Positions 30,938 to 36,386 of a stretch of DNA of 52,728 nucleotides are shown here, piece after piece (position 1 is the first letter of the stretch; each line of letters opens with the position of its first letter). The stretch comes from Segetibacter sp. 3557_3. GTDB taxonomy: Bacteria > Bacteroidota > Bacteroidia > Chitinophagales > Chitinophagaceae. Below the pieces are notes generated by a model, which was given only the letters and a program-made list of their open reading frames with translations, was not told the origin of the DNA and did not search any database. Made by a program: the position numbers and the translations under genes. The stretch spans positions 1-52,728 of the forward strand of contig NZ_SMSK01000027.1 of assembly GCF_004354985.1 (NCBI RefSeq), given 5' to 3'.

Positions 30938-33145
30938 TCAGGAATGTCTGGCTGTATTTTTAAATGTAATTTGTTGAATCACCTGCACAGGAACACTTCT
31001 TCCATTTTGCATACCGGGTTTCCAGGTTCCGGAATTTTTTAGCAATCTTATTGCTTCTTCCTCCAGGCCAAAACCTTTATCGCTAACCTTCTTAAAATTA
31101 CTGAGCTTACCATCGGTATCTACAACAAATTGAATTGACACAGCTCCTTCGATATTGTTCTTTATCGCTTCTGCCGGATACTGAAGATTGCTTTCAACAT
31201 AATTTGCAAAAGCTATCATCCCCGCTTCATAATAAGGTGGGTTTTCAACACGGGTAAAAATTTTGTCAAATTGCTTTTCCTGCTCACCATTAACGCTGGT
31301 TTCGTTTTTCAGCTTTGTAGACACGATAATTACACCATTACGTGCTTTGGCGCCGTAAATGTCCAGTGCGGTCTTATCCTTAATTATATCAATTCGTTTT
31401 ATATCCTCAGGATTAATTTCATTCAGAGAAAAGACTTTCGGGTCCTTCTCCACCCCATCCAGGATAACCAGTGGTTGCTCTGACATAACAAAACCGTTAT
31501 TTTTAACGCGTATAATTGTGTCCCGCTTTTGAGCATCACGGGGTATGGTGTCTTTGTTACGTTCACGCTTATATGCAACTCTTACCTCTCCTGTTCCGGT
31601 TTCGTTTATACTATCATCGACATGTTCCCTTTCACCTGAAACCGTTCTTACTCCTTTCTCAATCATTGAGAAGTACGTCTCTATACTGTTCGCTATCAGC
31701 CCGGCATATCTTGCCGCCTGGTCTTGCATCATCTTCATATCTGACGGGTTGGTGATGTACCCACATTCCAGCAAGATCGATGGGCAAACTTCCTGGTTGT
31801 CGAGAACATAGATGCCCGTTTGTTTTTGGGTAAGCGGAGTTTTGCTTTGCAGAAGTGGCTGGAGGTGTTGTGACAACAATGATCCGAATAAACGGCTGGA
31901 AGTAGTATGCTTGTTGGACTTTTTAGCAAGCACAATTTCAGCCCCTGTTTTTTGATCCGTCTTGATCTTACCAGTTGTATTGGTTGCATTCGCATGTATC
32001 GAGATAAAGAGATTTGCACCTGAAGACGAAAGTAGTTGCACCCTTTCCTGGGGTGTAAGAAATTGATCCTGATTGCGGGTCAGCACAACCTGTATATTTT
32101 GATTTCTCAACTCCTCTGCAAGCATCCTGCTTATCGTTAGTACGATTTCTTTTTCTTTTACTTCATTTACACCCATGGCACCATTATCCTTACCTCCATG
32201 GCCGGGATCAAGAACGACGGTGTATTTCTGCATTAAAGGAGTCTGCCCGAGATTGTTTGTTTGCTGCTTCATTTTAAATGCAAACAAAAATAAGATTGCA
32301 CCTAAAACAGGTAGAATGGATAACCTTCTCAAATAAGAGAAACGCGGATTACGGGAATTGGTAAGCATAAGAAGACGGCGTTTGATGGGTGAATAGAAGA
32401 AGTTGTTGGTAATGGAAAAATTGTGGCTGGGGTAAGTGGCTTTCAGCAACATTGCTGAAAATGCAGTAGTGTCTCCGTCGGATATTGCCTTGTTGTCGGC
32501 AATAAATTCATGGATCATACGTAACTCGCGATTGATGATCCACAACATTGGGTTAAACCAGCCGACGACCAGGTTGAAATTCAGGAAAAGCCTGTCGTAG
32601 CTATGTTTTTCCCGTACATGAGCTAACTCGTGCCGAAGGATCTTAGCGCCTTCGGAGCTGTTGAGCGGAATATCCTCATGCCAGAAAACATAATTAAAAA
32701 CGGAAAAAGGCGCTTGCCTGTGTCGGCAAAAAACAACCATGATACCATTCATTTTAGTAGAATAATTTTGCCGCGAAAGCTGGTACAACCTAACGGAAGC
32801 TATCAGCAACCTTACCAACAGAAATACGGAAACAAGGAGTACGCAAGTGCCAAGAAGAAGCTCCCAGTTCCAAGCGTACCGATTTCCAACCGTTGATTGT
32901 TCTTCAACAAATCGATCTGTACTTGCGACTATGGAAAGTAGATTTACCACAGCCGGTTGCGCGTCGGCCGTTGTTAAAAAGTCGAACTTAAATAATGGAA
33001 TTAACCAGGATGCAAATACAGTCGATAAAAGGTAAAATCGATTGTATTGGTGAAATTGACGGTTGCGCAATGCCAGGAAATAGTAACTATAAAGAAGCGC
33101 ACTGCAAACCAACACTTTTGCGAAATAGTATACGACAGGCAGCAT
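30938..33145 (-). CDS. BlaR1-like M56 peptidase fused to amidase_3, plug-like and TonB C-terminal domains
   Basis: 735 aa, four modules. (1) Residues 1-290: BlaR1/MecR1-type membrane metalloprotease with TM helices near 4-26, 37-53, 95-118 and 273-290. Its zinc site is HELAH (172-176) with Glu213 in HEFIAD. (2) About 306-495: N-acetylmuramoyl-L-alanine amidase (amidase_3). His316 (LDPGHGGKD), Glu331, His384 (ISIHAN) and Glu460 (LLECGY) are all present. (3) About 553-612: TonB-receptor plug-like segment (PLVILDGV, IYGAKARNGVIIV). (4) About 643-729: TonB C-terminal domain (NLQYPAEA to VPVQVIQQITF). It is 6 nt downstream of a BlaI-type repressor. The amidase occupies the place of BlaR1's periplasmic sensor, suggesting peptidoglycan sensing or cleavage coupled to derepression. 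Confidence 0.92.
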   Translation of the reverse strand: MLPVVYYFAKVLVCSALLYSYYFLALRNRQFHQYNRFYLLSTVFASWLIPLFKFDFLTTADAQPAVVNLLSIVASTDRFVEEQSTVGNRYAWNWELLLGTCVLLVSVFLLVRLLIASVRLYQLSRQNYSTKMNGIMVVFCRHRQAPFSVFNYVFWHEDIPLNSSEGAKILRHELAHVREKHSYDRLFLNFNLVVGWFNPMLWIINRELRMIHEFIADNKAISDGDTTAFSAMLLKATYPSHNFSITNNFFYSPIKRRLLMLTNSRNPRFSYLRRLSILPVLGAILFLFAFKMKQQTNNLGQTPLMQKYTVVLDPGHGGKDNGAMGVNEVKEKEIVLTISRMLAEELRNQNIQVVLTRNQDQFLTPQERVQLLSSSGANLFISIHANATNTTGKIKTDQKTGAEIVLAKKSNKHTTSSRLFGSLLSQHLQPLLQSKTPLTQKQTGIYVLDNQEVCPSILLECGYITNPSDMKMMQDQAARYAGLIANSIETYFSMIEKGVRTVSGEREHVDDSINETGTGEVRVAYKRERNKDTIPRDAQKRDTIIRVKNNGFVMSEQPLVILDGVEKDPKVFSLNEINPEDIKRIDIIKDKTALDIYGAKARNGVIIVSTKLKNETSVNGEQEKQFDKIFTRVENPPYYEAGMIAFANYVESNLQYPAEAIKNNIEGAVSIQFVVDTDGKLSNFKKVSDKGFGLEEEAIRLLKNSGTWKPGMQNGRSVPVQVIQQITFKNTARHS

Positions 33146-33151
33146 AGAAAA

Positions 33152-33514
33152 TTATTTTTGAGCTTTTTTCAATTCTTTTAGGAGGAGTTCAAGGTCCTTT
33201 ACATCAAGACCTTTCTTTTCTACCATAAAAGAGACTACGTTGGTAAAAGAGCCTTCGAAATACCCTTCAACCAGGTTGTTGATGGAACTCCTGGAGTAAT
33301 CAGCTTTTTGAATTAACGCATGGTATTGATTATTGCGTCCAAAAGTTTCGGTACCCACGAAACCCTTCTCCCCCAAAATCTTTAGAATTGTTGCAACAGT
33401 ATTTGAATGCGGCTTTGGCTCCGACATTTCATCTATGATGTCTTTTAAAAAGCCCCGTTCAATTTTCCAGAGAGCTTTCATCACTTGCTCCTCGGCTTTT
33501 GTTAGTGGTTTCAT
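33152..33514 (-). CDS. BlaI/MecI-type transcriptional repressor
   Basis: 120 aa winged-helix repressor (LTKAEEQVMKALW, PKPHSNTVATILKILGEKGFV) with a C-terminal dimerisation helix region. In BlaI the partner protease cleaves in this dimer domain. The matching place here is SFTNVVSFMVEKK, with Ser95-Phe96 as the likely scissile area by position. It is translated immediately before the M56 fusion protein (6-nt gap). Two AACTA-N6-TAGTT dyads lie upstream, as expected for autoregulation. No beta-lactamase gene is adjacent, so the regulon is probably envelope-related. Confidence 0.93.
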   Translation of the reverse strand: MKPLTKAEEQVMKALWKIERGFLKDIIDEMSEPKPHSNTVATILKILGEKGFVGTETFGRNNQYHALIQKADYSRSSINNLVEGYFEGSFTNVVSFMVEKKGLDVKDLELLLKELKKAQK

Positions 33515-33539
33515 TTTTCCTTATTTGCCATAAAACTAT

Positions 33540-33575
33540 AACTAATAATTTAGTTTACAAACTATTTTTTTAGTT
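33540..33575. promoter_or_regulatory. Tandem BlaI-type operator dyads
   Basis: AACTA-N6-TAGTT occurs at 33540-33555 and again at 33560-33575, with centres 20 bp apart. The first is perfect over 16 bp (AACTAATAATTTAGTT). They lie 26-61 nt upstream of the repressor ATG. Shape and place match autoregulatory BlaI/MecI operators. Confidence 0.7.
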
Positions 33576-33891: not shown

Positions 33892-34548
33892 CTAAACATT
33901 CATTTCCGGTACAAAAGCTGGCACAGTTAAACGACCAAGCGTTTTTGCCCGGATCTCTTCCACCGAAATGCCGGGAGCGCGTTCAAGTAATAGAAATCCT
34001 TCGGGTGTAACATCAATTACCGCCAATTCAGTAACTATTTTCTTCACACATCCTACTCCTGTCAGCGGAAGCGTGCAAGCTGGCAAGAGTTTGCTTTCAC
34101 CTTTAGGATTTGTGTGTTGCATGGCAACAATTATATTTTTTGCACTGGCAACAAGGTCCATTGCGCCACCCATACCTTTTACCATTTTCCCCGGTATCTT
34201 CCAGTTGGCTATATCACCGCTTTCACTTACTTCCATCGCACCAAGGACAGTAAGATCAACTTTGCCTGCCCTGATCATACCAAAGCTTTCAGCACTATCG
34301 AAAAATGCACCTCCTGGAATTACAGTAACTGTTTCTTTTCCTGCGTTAATCAGGTCTGCATCAATGTCACTTTCAGCCGGGTAAGGCCCCATGCCGAGAA
34401 TACCATTTTCGCTCTGGAATATCACCGTCATGCCCGATGGAATATAATTGCTTACAAGTGTCGGTATTCCAATACCAAGATTGACATACATGCCATCTCT
34501 CAGCTCCTGTGCAATTCTACGGGCGATACCAAATTTATCTAACGGCAT
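33892..34548 (-). CDS. scoB: 3-oxoacid CoA-transferase subunit B
   Basis: Beta subunit of a class I CoA-transferase moving CoA between succinyl-CoA (or acetyl-CoA) and acetoacetate or another 3-oxo acid. 218 aa with the signature [12 protein letters not shown], catalytic Glu47 in [12 protein letters not shown], and GGAMDLV. It follows the unknown gene 34551-35297 after only 2 nt and ends the eight-gene cluster. The partner subunit is scoA at 35311-36006. Whether it is a succinyl- or acetate-dependent enzyme cannot be told from sequence reading alone. Confidence 0.95.
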
Positions 34549-34550
34549 AG

Positions 34551-35297
34551 TTACTGGTTTAGTAATTCAAATATCTCAGGACGCTTCGACAGTGCCACAA
34601 ATTTTTTGTCGAGTGTAGATGCCATTGGCCGGTTGAGTTCCGCGATAAAGGCCAGATTTGTTTTAACCAGGGTTTTAATCTTGTTGACGCCTTCCTGATC
34701 AAGGCCACTTTGGATAAAGGCATTTTCATGACCATTGGCCTTATCCAATTCAAGATCATCGGCATCGTCAAGTAACAGTAGAGTGCTGATAAGTGCAAAC
34801 CAACACTTAAGTACGTAGAATTCAAGTTCGTCTTGAATTGGTAAAACTACCAGAGAGAATAAAAAGAGATCACCACGATGTAATGCTTTAAAGGGTAACG
34901 AAAGCGATTTGAACCGGTTGTTTGTCCCATCACGTACAAAGTCAACAATATCTGCTAAGAAGCCTTCATCTGTTGCTTTTTGACTTACAAAATCCGTAGC
35001 AAGAACAACTGCCTCCTGCGGTGATATCTCCCCGATTTCCTCGCGGGCACTTATGTGACCGATGTGTTCCATAGCCGCCACGTAGTCTTCAGAAAGCAGG
35101 TGTTCTCTAGGAATGCCCGATTTATAGAGGAGGTCAACGATTAGTGGAATAAACAGCCAGCCAATTTCTGGTCTCAGGTACATCAACTTATCTTTCCAAT
35201 AAAGATTGTTTGCTGGTGGTTGCCGGTCTGTGAAAAACTTTGCTATAGTATCATCAACACCATAGTTAATCGCGAGAAAGTTTGCACTTACAAACAT
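34551..35297 (-). CDS. Unknown helical protein between the CoA-transferase subunits
   Basis: 248 aa, predicted mostly alpha-helical and soluble, with one very hydrophobic helix ([13 protein letters not shown], 164-176). This runs into an acidic motif DDADDLELD (177-185). A DDxxD-like motif after a hydrophobic helix recalls isoprenoid synthase-fold enzymes, but no second metal motif is clear, so this is only a hint. The frame is tightly packed: 13 nt after scoA and 2 nt before scoB, indicating co-translation with the CoA-transferase. I do not recognise the family. Confidence 0.72.
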
Positions 35298-35310: not shown

Positions 35311-36006
35311 TTAGATTAATTGAATTGTTCTTCTTTCTATTCGCTTTTCATAGGTGGTACCCTTGAAAATACGGTGCACATATATACCTGGCACATGAAT
35401 GCTATCCGGGTCCAGTTCTCCCGGTGCGACCAGGTGTTCTACCTCAGCTATAGTAACGCTGCCGGCTCTTGCCATCGAGCTTGAGAAATTTCGGGTTGTT
35501 TTTCTAAATACAAGATTGCCCATGCTGTCTCCTTTCCACGCTTTAACCAGCGCAAAGTCGGCGTGCAACGCAAGTTCCATAAGGTGCATTTTACCATTGA
35601 ATTCCCGAACTTCTTTTCCGGCAGCCACCTCCGTACCATAGCCAGCAGGTGTAAAGAAGGCAGGAATACCCATCCCGGCCATCTGGATTCTTGTAGCCAA
35701 TGTTCCCTGAGGAATCAGGTCGACCTCCAGCTCTCCACTAAGTAGTTGTCTTTCGAATTCGGCATTTTCTCCCACATAACTGCTCATCATCTTCTTAACC
35801 TGCCGAGTTTGAAGAAGTGAGCCTAATCCAAACCCATCAATACCGGCATTATTCGAAATGCAGGTCAATTCCTTCACTCCTTTTCGTTGTAGTGCAGCAA
35901 TGCTGTTTTCCGGAATACCGCAAAGTCCAAAACCGCCAACCATAAGGGTAGCCCCATTTTGGACATCATGGATTGCCTCATCTGCATTTTCGAAAACCTT
36001 ATTCAT
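35311..36006 (-). CDS. scoA: 3-oxoacid CoA-transferase subunit A
   Basis: Alpha subunit of the class I CoA-transferase. 231 aa from ATG 36006 (MNKVFENADEAIHDVQNG). It shows the CoA-binding GGFGLCGIPENSI, SNNAGIDGFGLG, LIPQGTLATRIQMAG and GIPAFFTPAGYGT, as in the family. An in-frame extension upstream is not family-like and overlaps the DUF4296 gene, so the ATG at 36006 is chosen. It lies 14 nt after that gene. The B subunit is separated from it by an unknown gene, whereas the pair is usually adjacent. Confidence 0.95.
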   Translation of the reverse strand: MNKVFENADEAIHDVQNGATLMVGGFGLCGIPENSIAALQRKGVKELTCISNNAGIDGFGLGSLLQTRQVKKMMSSYVGENAEFERQLLSGELEVDLIPQGTLATRIQMAGMGIPAFFTPAGYGTEVAAGKEVREFNGKMHLMELALHADFALVKAWKGDSMGNLVFRKTTRNFSSSMARAGSVTIAEVEHLVAPGELDPDSIHVPGIYVHRIFKGTTYEKRIERRTIQLI

Positions 36007-36020
36007 ATGGATCAGGTTTG

Positions 36021-36386
36021 TTATTGAATTGTCTTTGCAGGCCTGGTGCTGTCGGATGGACGATGTTGAGCAGCCCAATTTGCCAGAGAATCAAACATTA
36101 CTTTATGTTTATCCGGATGCTCCTGGTAATATTGGTAGCTTTTAAAAAACTCATCTCTGGAAATTTTGTGAACTAGGAATACATGTTCATACATCCTGAT
36201 GGTTTCTTGTTTACGGTTAAAGCTGGTATCCTTAAAAACGTAGCTGGTAACGTATTCATCGGCACGGAGCAGATCGAACACAATTTTCTTCATTTGATTG
36301 GGGGGAAGGACGTCGTCAGGAACAGAAGACTGCGAATTACACGAAGACAAAAAGAGGCTCGCAGCTACAAGCACAATACGGATCAT
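36021..36386 (-). CDS. DUF4296 family lipoprotein
   Basis: 121 aa. The N-terminus MIRIVLVAASLFLSSCNS is a lipoprotein signal with Cys16 as the lipidation site. The mature part is helical and charged (MKKIVFDLLRADEYV, IRMYEHVFLVHKISRDEFFKSYQYYQEHP), the pattern of DUF4296 proteins common in Bacteroidota. The function is unknown; it is probably periplasmic, facing the outer or inner membrane. Its start overlaps the stop of the DUF4835 gene by four bases (ATGA). Confidence 0.88.
   Translation of the reverse strand: MIRIVLVAASLFLSSCNSQSSVPDDVLPPNQMKKIVFDLLRADEYVTSYVFKDTSFNRKQETIRMYEHVFLVHKISRDEFFKSYQYYQEHPDKHKVMFDSLANWAAQHRPSDSTRPAKTIQ

Follow-up and report, generated by a model that had tools for sequence, protein, structure and literature searches.

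An M56 protease–amidase fusion beside a blaI-type repressor gene in Segetibacter sp. 3557_3, and a possible wall-sensing switch in the Chitinophagaceae

The blaI–M56 locus and its fused protein

The window analyzed here, a stretch of 52,728 nucleotides from contig NZ_SMSK01000027.1 of the 6.75-Mb genome of Segetibacter sp. 3557_3, contains a gene for a BlaI-type repressor followed on the same strand by a gene whose product joins an M56 protease, an amidase, a Plug-like segment and a TonB C-terminal domain. The initial annotation of this DNA had given the coordinates of the second gene correctly and left its strand unstated: the gene is a single uninterrupted frame with an ATG start on the minus strand, and frame 1 of the plus strand over the same positions has no open frame, with stops throughout. 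Both the four-part chain and the preceding repressor gene that the annotation had proposed were borne out, the first by four Pfam domains above their cut-offs in one intact frame and the second by a Penicillinase_R match. The genes and protein features are as follows.

33152–33514, minus strand: BlaI/Penicillinase_R-type repressor, 120 aa (Penicillinase_R, 96 bits, Pfam), 6 bases upstream of the M56 gene
30938–33145, minus strand: M56 protease–Amidase_3–Plug–TonB_C protein, 735 aa (ORF translation, Pfam, residue check, structure model)
32363–32665, minus strand: Peptidase_M56 match, residues 161–261 (Pfam), with HELAH at 172–176, E213 and D217
32279–32317, minus strand: last predicted transmembrane helix, residues 277–289 (secondary structure of the model)
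31679–32218, minus strand: Amidase_3 domain, residues 310–489, with zinc ligands H316, E331 and H384 and catalytic E460
31331–31483, minus strand: Plug-like segment, residues 555–605 (Pfam, 26.5 bits, cut-off 23.9; a weak, half-length match)
30959–31189, minus strand: TonB C-terminal domain, residues 653–729 (Pfam, 59.6 bits, cut-off 24.6)

The Peptidase_M56 match (45.2 bits, cut-off 31) covers only the C-terminal third of the Pfam model and includes the motif H172-E173-x-x-H176, with E213 and D217 downstream. The domain search also confirmed the amidase, at 141.6 bits against a cut-off of 27, and E460 is the catalytic Glu of its ExG motif. HELAH, Glu213, His316, Glu331, His384 and Glu460 all lie at the positions first named and, with H316, E331, H384 and E460 all present, the amidase of this protein looks catalytic, as had been suggested. 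Residues 295–305, where a frameshift or assembly join had been considered, contain neither: the frame is continuous and relatives share the junction.

An AlphaFold model built from a 62-row alignment (mean pLDDT 82.6, pTM 0.52) reproduced the amidase with high confidence, ten-residue pLDDT blocks across residues 311–490 averaging 91–98 with one exception at 68; the TonB C-terminal domain (94–97) and the Plug-like segment from residue 561 on (85–92) were also well modelled. Because pLDDT falls below 50 in the linkers at 292–300, 502–554 and 613–625 and pTM is 0.52, the model does not fix the relative arrangement of the domains. The top Foldseek match for the amidase was CwlV (TM-score on target 0.88), other matches being AmiC2, AmiA, CwlD-GerS, AmiB-EnvC and LytH-ActH, and the TonB C-terminal domain matched 6i97_D (E 6.6e-4). 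The best NCBIfam match of the amidase, CwlD, reached 98.9 bits, far below its cut-off of 221.55.

The locus resembles BlaR1/BlaI and MecR1/MecI in its BlaI-type repressor gene and in encoding a polytopic M56 zinc protease that has the HExxH...E and D residues, and the protein resembles BlaR1 and MecR1 in that its last helix is followed by a C-terminal extramembrane domain. In BlaR1, the sensor is placed after the last helix and the zinc protease faces the cytoplasm (PMC9834060). From this topology and the positive charges at residues 26–37, the chain after helix 277–289 should be periplasmic. The domain found there is Amidase_3, whereas in BlaR1 and MecR1 it is a penicillin-binding domain; in agreement with the initial annotation, which had the amidase replacing the beta-lactam sensor, neither Pfam nor NCBIfam gave a match to a class D beta-lactamase-like penicillin-binding sensor domain anywhere in the 735-aa protein. 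The blaR1_generic family scored 30.9 bits against a cut-off of 400, confined to residues 161–260, and the Foldseek match to Staphylococcus aureus BlaR1 (E about 2e-4) was a loose whole-chain one, with an rmsd of 19–22 over 409–465 columns. Since the beta-lactam sensor is absent, we regard the protein as a variant of the BlaR1/BlaI kind and not as BlaR1 proper. It also differs in its predicted operator and regulon (see below) and in its optional Plug and TonB_C modules.

TonB proteins have a single N-terminal helix and a Pro-rich spanning region. Here the TonB_C domain is present, the N-terminal part is the M56 membrane region and the linker at 502–554 contains one Pro, indicating a TonB_C-bearing protein and not a TonB.

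Upstream of the operon and on the same strand, two CoA-transferase subunit genes (33892–34548 and 35311–36078) flank a 248-aa frame (34551–35297) without a Pfam or NCBIfam match. Elsewhere in the genome there is a second BlaI-type and M56 gene pair (L072:4529–6849), in which the M56 match is stronger and the amidase is absent.

Distribution and history of the fusion

The initial annotation had considered an inserted amidase unusual, and this proved wrong. A profile of the junction, searched against 394 Chitinophagaceae genomes at E 1e-40 or better, matched 141 genomes, a number that includes amidase-free M56 proteins, and we verified M56 and amidase in one frame in at least 118 of the 394, the Segetibacter sp. 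3557_3 genome included. This count is a lower bound, since most matched loci were examined and the rest, several of them at contig edges, were left uncounted. Three genomes (G016, G028 and G035) had already yielded verified single chains in a first set of 58 relatives. Carriers include Ferruginibacter, Parafilimonas, Ginsengibacter, Terrimonas, Lacibacter, Sediminibacterium and Taibaiella, with isolate genomes among them; Parafilimonas terrae and Ginsengibacter hankyongi (loci L121 and L112) are two culturable examples. The M56–amidase fusion is therefore real and recurrent, and recurrence in the family rules out that the insertion is a rarity or an artefact. Beyond the family, 298 genomes of the order (E 1e-50 or better) gave 24 matches, all in Chitinophagaceae, and 395 genomes of the class (E 1e-45 or better) gave four in Chitinophagaceae and two in another family, at thresholds that would miss weaker fusions. 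The two outside fusions (L339 and L340) follow a BlaI-like gene and have ACTA-N6-TAGT dyads.

Within the genus, the fusion was absent from nine other genomes, some of which are incomplete. One of them (G001, locus L067) encodes a separate amidase of 225 aa that begins with 26 residues resembling the last M56 helix; in another genome (G022, locus L066) a separate amidase with an N-terminal helix is encoded directly before a blaI–M56 pair. Other arrangements were seen as well: fused and amidase-free M56 genes lie close together in one locus at L270, L283, L122, L131 and L136, and at L276:5158–5805 a stand-alone amidase gene lies directly 3' of a fused gene, with Gln replacing its first zinc His.

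On a tree of 190 M56 domains (145 fused, 45 not), the fused/unfused label changes 21 times, at least 14 of which are forced; without two unfused rows cut at contig ends the numbers are 19 and at least 12. Such repeated changes suggest that the amidase domain has been lost or gained again and again, in the manner of an accessory. The M56 domain studied here groups with four amidase-free proteins, the nearest rows being from its own genus (97, starred), and its amidase is nearest, without starred support, to the stand-alone amidase of L067. Because the housekeeping amidases (four rows, three distinct) all fall on one side of the tree (99, starred), the stand-alone relatives look like split-off pieces. 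We read this pattern as pointing to a fusion that arose early, was lost repeatedly and in some cases split again; a history of repeated amidase gain is possible.

The tail beyond the amidase is also variable. Among 48 fusions scanned (the present gene and 47 of 54 named fusions), TonB_C was found in 22, Plug in 16 and M23 in 2, and 37 of the 118 fused proteins are no longer than 530 aa (in two of these the sequence stops at a contig or locus edge). The tail is more frequent in M56 proteins that lack the amidase (TonB_C in 24 and Plug in 17 of 30). The Plug and TonB_C tail is thus optional in the fusion family, and on these counts the earlier proposal of an outer-membrane contact through the TonB end is weak as regards an essential role. 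M23 proteases have HxxxD and HxH active motifs, and degenerate LytM domains of the EnvC kind activate amidases. Neither motif is present in the two M23/LytM domains, which follow the amidase in the same chain (residues 628–703 in L109 and 582–669 in L136); in this they are like the activators of the EnvC kind.

The putative operator and the predicted regulon

The blaI gene lies on the same strand no more than 155 bases upstream of the fused gene in 106 of 118 loci and at 1.7–1.9 kb in two; at the other ten, no BlaI-like frame was found in the DNA examined, which extends more than 3.5 kb upstream in seven and 250 bases or less in three. The consensus promoter of Bacteroidota is TTTG-N19-TAnnTTTG, with TAnnTTTG as the -7 element. 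Upstream of blaI in the window are the following features.

33540–33555, no strand assigned: operator dyad 1, AACTA-N6-TAGTT, the one nearest blaI; a predicted BlaI site
33560–33575, no strand assigned: operator dyad 2, at a 20-base spacing from the first
33531–33561, minus strand: near match to the Bacteroidota promoter consensus, TTTG-N19-TAGTTTTA, overlapping dyad 1; its -7 element is a one-base variant of TAnnTTTG

The dyad is a general property of these loci. AACTA-N6-TAGTT occurs upstream of blaI in 101 of 106 comparable regions, in two copies in 86 and three in 8, with a spacing that is most often 20 bases; in ten block-shuffled sets, any five-base dyad was found in at most five regions. 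An exact TAnnTTTG begins 16–18 bases after the start of a dyad in 63 of the 106 regions and is found anywhere in 16–26 of 106 shuffled ones. We infer that the repeat is the operator of BlaI.

To what extent the putative operator controls other genes can be judged from its distribution. The exact dyad is found at three places in the Segetibacter sp. 3557_3 genome, the two listed above and one inside a coding frame, and the exact tandem at this locus only, the next best site having two mismatches. As the sole other exact dyad is intragenic, the regulon predicted for this genome, counting exact sites, is the blaI–M56 operon. The dyad is also rarer here than a reversed control pattern (3 and 25 forward matches, respectively), as if avoided elsewhere. 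Across 98 genomes of the family, the tandem form is present in 42, with one to three per genome, against two matches in total for the control pattern. Of the 31 genomes in this set with a verified fusion, 20 have it immediately upstream of the fused locus (coordinates compared by eye). We read ten tandem-site regions, a part of all such sites, that lie away from a fused M56 match in nine other genomes. Five precede a blaI–M56 pair, one of which (in G076) ends at a contig edge and may belong to a fused gene that is also cut; one precedes a MacB/FtsX-type permease gene in the same cluster; and the remaining four precede TlpA-like, thioredoxin-like, M1 peptidase and DUF418 genes. Self-regulation therefore appears to be the rule but not an absolute one. 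The permease gene (L380:3042–5435, in G102), with the tandem dyads at its 5' side, lies between an FtsE-like gene and blaI. At L066 the operator lies between the separate amidase gene and blaI, so that this amidase is not obviously in the regulon.

M56–BlaI loci with this operator are also common without an amidase: among 26 uncut, unfused M56 rows, blaI is present at 24 and the dyad at 25, indicating that the switch works without the domain. An FtsE-like ATPase gene divergent from blaI, present at 45 of 118 fused loci (L063, L064 and L066, for example), was considered as a link to the amidase and rejected, since it is about as frequent at amidase-free loci (25/50 fused and 13/29 unfused rows for which over 1,200 upstream bases were available; 23/47 and 12/26 after cut frames were dropped); it belongs to the locus and not to the amidase. 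Two FtsE-like copies that were scanned scored 225.9 and 238.6, under the FtsE cut-off of 264.85. The FtsE-like gene and blaI often share a short intergenic region, and the operator might serve both. A motif in the first extracellular loop, considered as an amidase partner by comparison with EL1 and the BlaR1 sensor, was likewise rejected: 48 of 107 fused proteins have it, as do 18 of 36 unfused ones (p 0.70), counting only rows with a recognizable NRFYL landmark out of 145 and 45.

Possible roles of the amidase domain

To compare residue conservation, we used two overlapping, non-identical sets of 145 non-identical fused rows, selected by M56 or by amidase coverage after truncated rows were dropped, from a pool that includes the two fusions of another family. 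No substitution occurs at M56 residues H172, E173, H176, E213 or D217 in any of the 145 fused or 45 unfused domains, nor at the zinc ligands in any of the 145 fused amidase domains. The catalytic Glu is replaced in 18 of the 145 (by Q in seven, H in three, A and S in two each, and D, G, L and N in one each), L107 and L065 being examples, so that 127 keep the full catalytic set. On the amidase tree, a quick one with SH-aLRT support only, Glu loss requires 13 changes, at least nine of them forced by starred branches, and the losses are more clustered than shuffled labels (mean 17.2 changes). All 41 AmiC-like housekeeping amidases used as a control (30 loci in the same family, all recognized by the amidase profile and aligned with the protein from Segetibacter sp. 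3557_3) keep all four residues. The difference between 18/145 and 0/41 gives a Fisher p of 0.014, a test that ignores relatedness and, because the losses are clustered, overstates independence, with a control of only 41 proteins. Zinc ligands would also be lost under mere enzyme decay, and their retention thus argues against simple decay; zinc-dependent wall binding seems to be more constant than hydrolysis. This pattern fits the amidase as the sensor of a BlaR1-type switch, and with it the earlier suggestion of wall-ligand sensing. Retention of the full set in 127 of 145 indicates that hydrolysis is usually selected.

Our preferred reading, to which we give somewhat less than an even chance, is that the locus encodes a wall-sensing switch of the BlaR1/BlaI kind that is self-contained and regulates itself. 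We infer that the M56 protease cuts BlaI and that the amidase is the sensor. BlaI dimers, judging from the sequence, would occupy the tandem dyads that overlap the promoter, holding down expression of blaI and the M56–amidase gene. The M56 protein would be an inner-membrane protein whose zinc protease is on the cytoplasmic side and whose zinc amidase is in the periplasm, where the amidase fold would bind the stem peptides of uncrosslinked or damaged peptidoglycan through its zinc site. Occupancy of this site may be relayed through the last membrane helix to switch on the protease, which would cleave BlaI and induce the operon. Induction would yield mainly the M56–amidase protein itself, and hence more wall-binding amidase until no ligand is left. 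The domain probably also hydrolyses the wall in most members, including this one, and in several lineages it may only bind; Plug and TonB_C would be optional accessory modules. The main points in favor are the domain order and residues, the linkage to a repressor, the dyads, the invariant zinc sites, the Glu losses and the degenerate M23 tails in two of 48 fusions. Counted against it are the 127 catalytic domains, the amidase-free switches, the gain and loss of the domain, the ten loci with no BlaI-like frame in the DNA examined, the separate amidases of G022 and G001 and the clustering of the Glu losses. That the amidase fold acts across the Chitinophagaceae as a peptidoglycan receptor, a zinc-site sensor of stem peptides in an autoregulatory M56–BlaI loop that has become a pseudo-enzyme receptor in several lineages, is a broader proposal that we advance only tentatively.

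The closest rival takes the amidase as the effector and not the sensor, with M56 and BlaI setting the dose of a membrane-tethered enzyme in response to a signal sensed elsewhere (an M56 loop, membrane stress or a partner), such that domain linkage would only tie enzyme dose to the protease. Most of the fused amidases have a full catalytic set, as do the stand-alone domain relatives at L066, L067, L297 and L165, switches without an amidase exist, and the predicted regulon in Segetibacter sp. 3557_3 offers no output gene other than the operon. If the domain served hydrolysis alone, repeated Glu loss with the zinc ligands kept would be difficult to account for, and we consider this reading doubtful. 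Variation in the tail modules and repeated gain or loss of the amidase would also suit a domain that, like Plug and TonB_C, serves as an interchangeable periplasmic tether to the wall while the membrane part reads the signal; a mere anchor needs no intact zinc site, however, and all 145 domains retain the ligands (although the metal could serve to stabilize the fold), making a purely anchoring role unlikely. Alternatively, the amidase could make the inducer, releasing stem peptides that, once taken up and trimmed, inactivate BlaI. According to one study, gamma-D-Glu-meso-diaminopimelate inactivates Bacillus licheniformis BlaI, and gamma-D-Glu-diamino-acid dipeptides dissociate this BlaI and MecI from DNA in vitro, with an affinity for MecI in the millimolar range (PMC3305447). 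The product of an amidase contains such a dipeptide, yet the weak affinity and the 18 amidases without the catalytic Glu make inducer production rather improbable. A functionless product of chance fusion or of misassembly, to which the sole occurrence among ten genomes of the genus (some incomplete) might point, is scarcely credible for a chain carried by at least 118 of the 394 family genomes, isolates too, with residues, repressor and operator conserved.

M56–BlaI switches are best known as regulators of beta-lactam resistance and, to our knowledge, the sensing of wall damage in Bacteroidota is poorly known. In Chitinophagaceae, such a switch carries a wall enzyme together with a predicted operator, a caution against taking M56–BlaI genes as antibiotic-resistance genes by default, and through the fusion these bacteria may monitor the condition of their cell wall. 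Natural Glu loss with the zinc ligands kept is the very change that would separate sensing from cutting, which makes the sensor question directly testable. We recognized no description of an M56–Amidase_3 chain in the open-access literature searched, most subscription papers lying outside that search; the relevant passage of a review of M23 hydrolases lists M56 among the other catalytic domains chained with M23, names no Amidase_3–M56 chain and puts double-catalytic chains at less than 1% of its matches (PMC9662197).

Among amidases controlled by a partner, our data suggest likeness to three systems. Clostridium difficile CwlD-GerS shares the minimal Amidase_3 fold (structure 7rag, matched by Foldseek) and has a zinc site tied to a protein partner (PMC8496864); CwlD differs in being a separate, lipoprotein-activated enzyme with no protease in the chain. 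S. aureus LytH-ActH (structure match 7tj4) is similar in that amidase activity depends on a transmembrane protein (PMC8496864), but consists of two proteins where there is one chain here. In the E. coli FtsEX-EnvC-AmiA/B system, a membrane complex and a degenerate LytM domain control an amidase, comparable with the degenerate M23 tail in two of 48 fusions and with the FtsE-like gene divergent at 45 of 118 fused loci, a neighbour about as common where the amidase is absent. ActH has a rhomboid-type domain and not an M56 protease, and we know of no repressor involved in LytH-ActH. The fused amidase differs from AmiA/B in aligning best with CwlV, which has no autoinhibitory insert.
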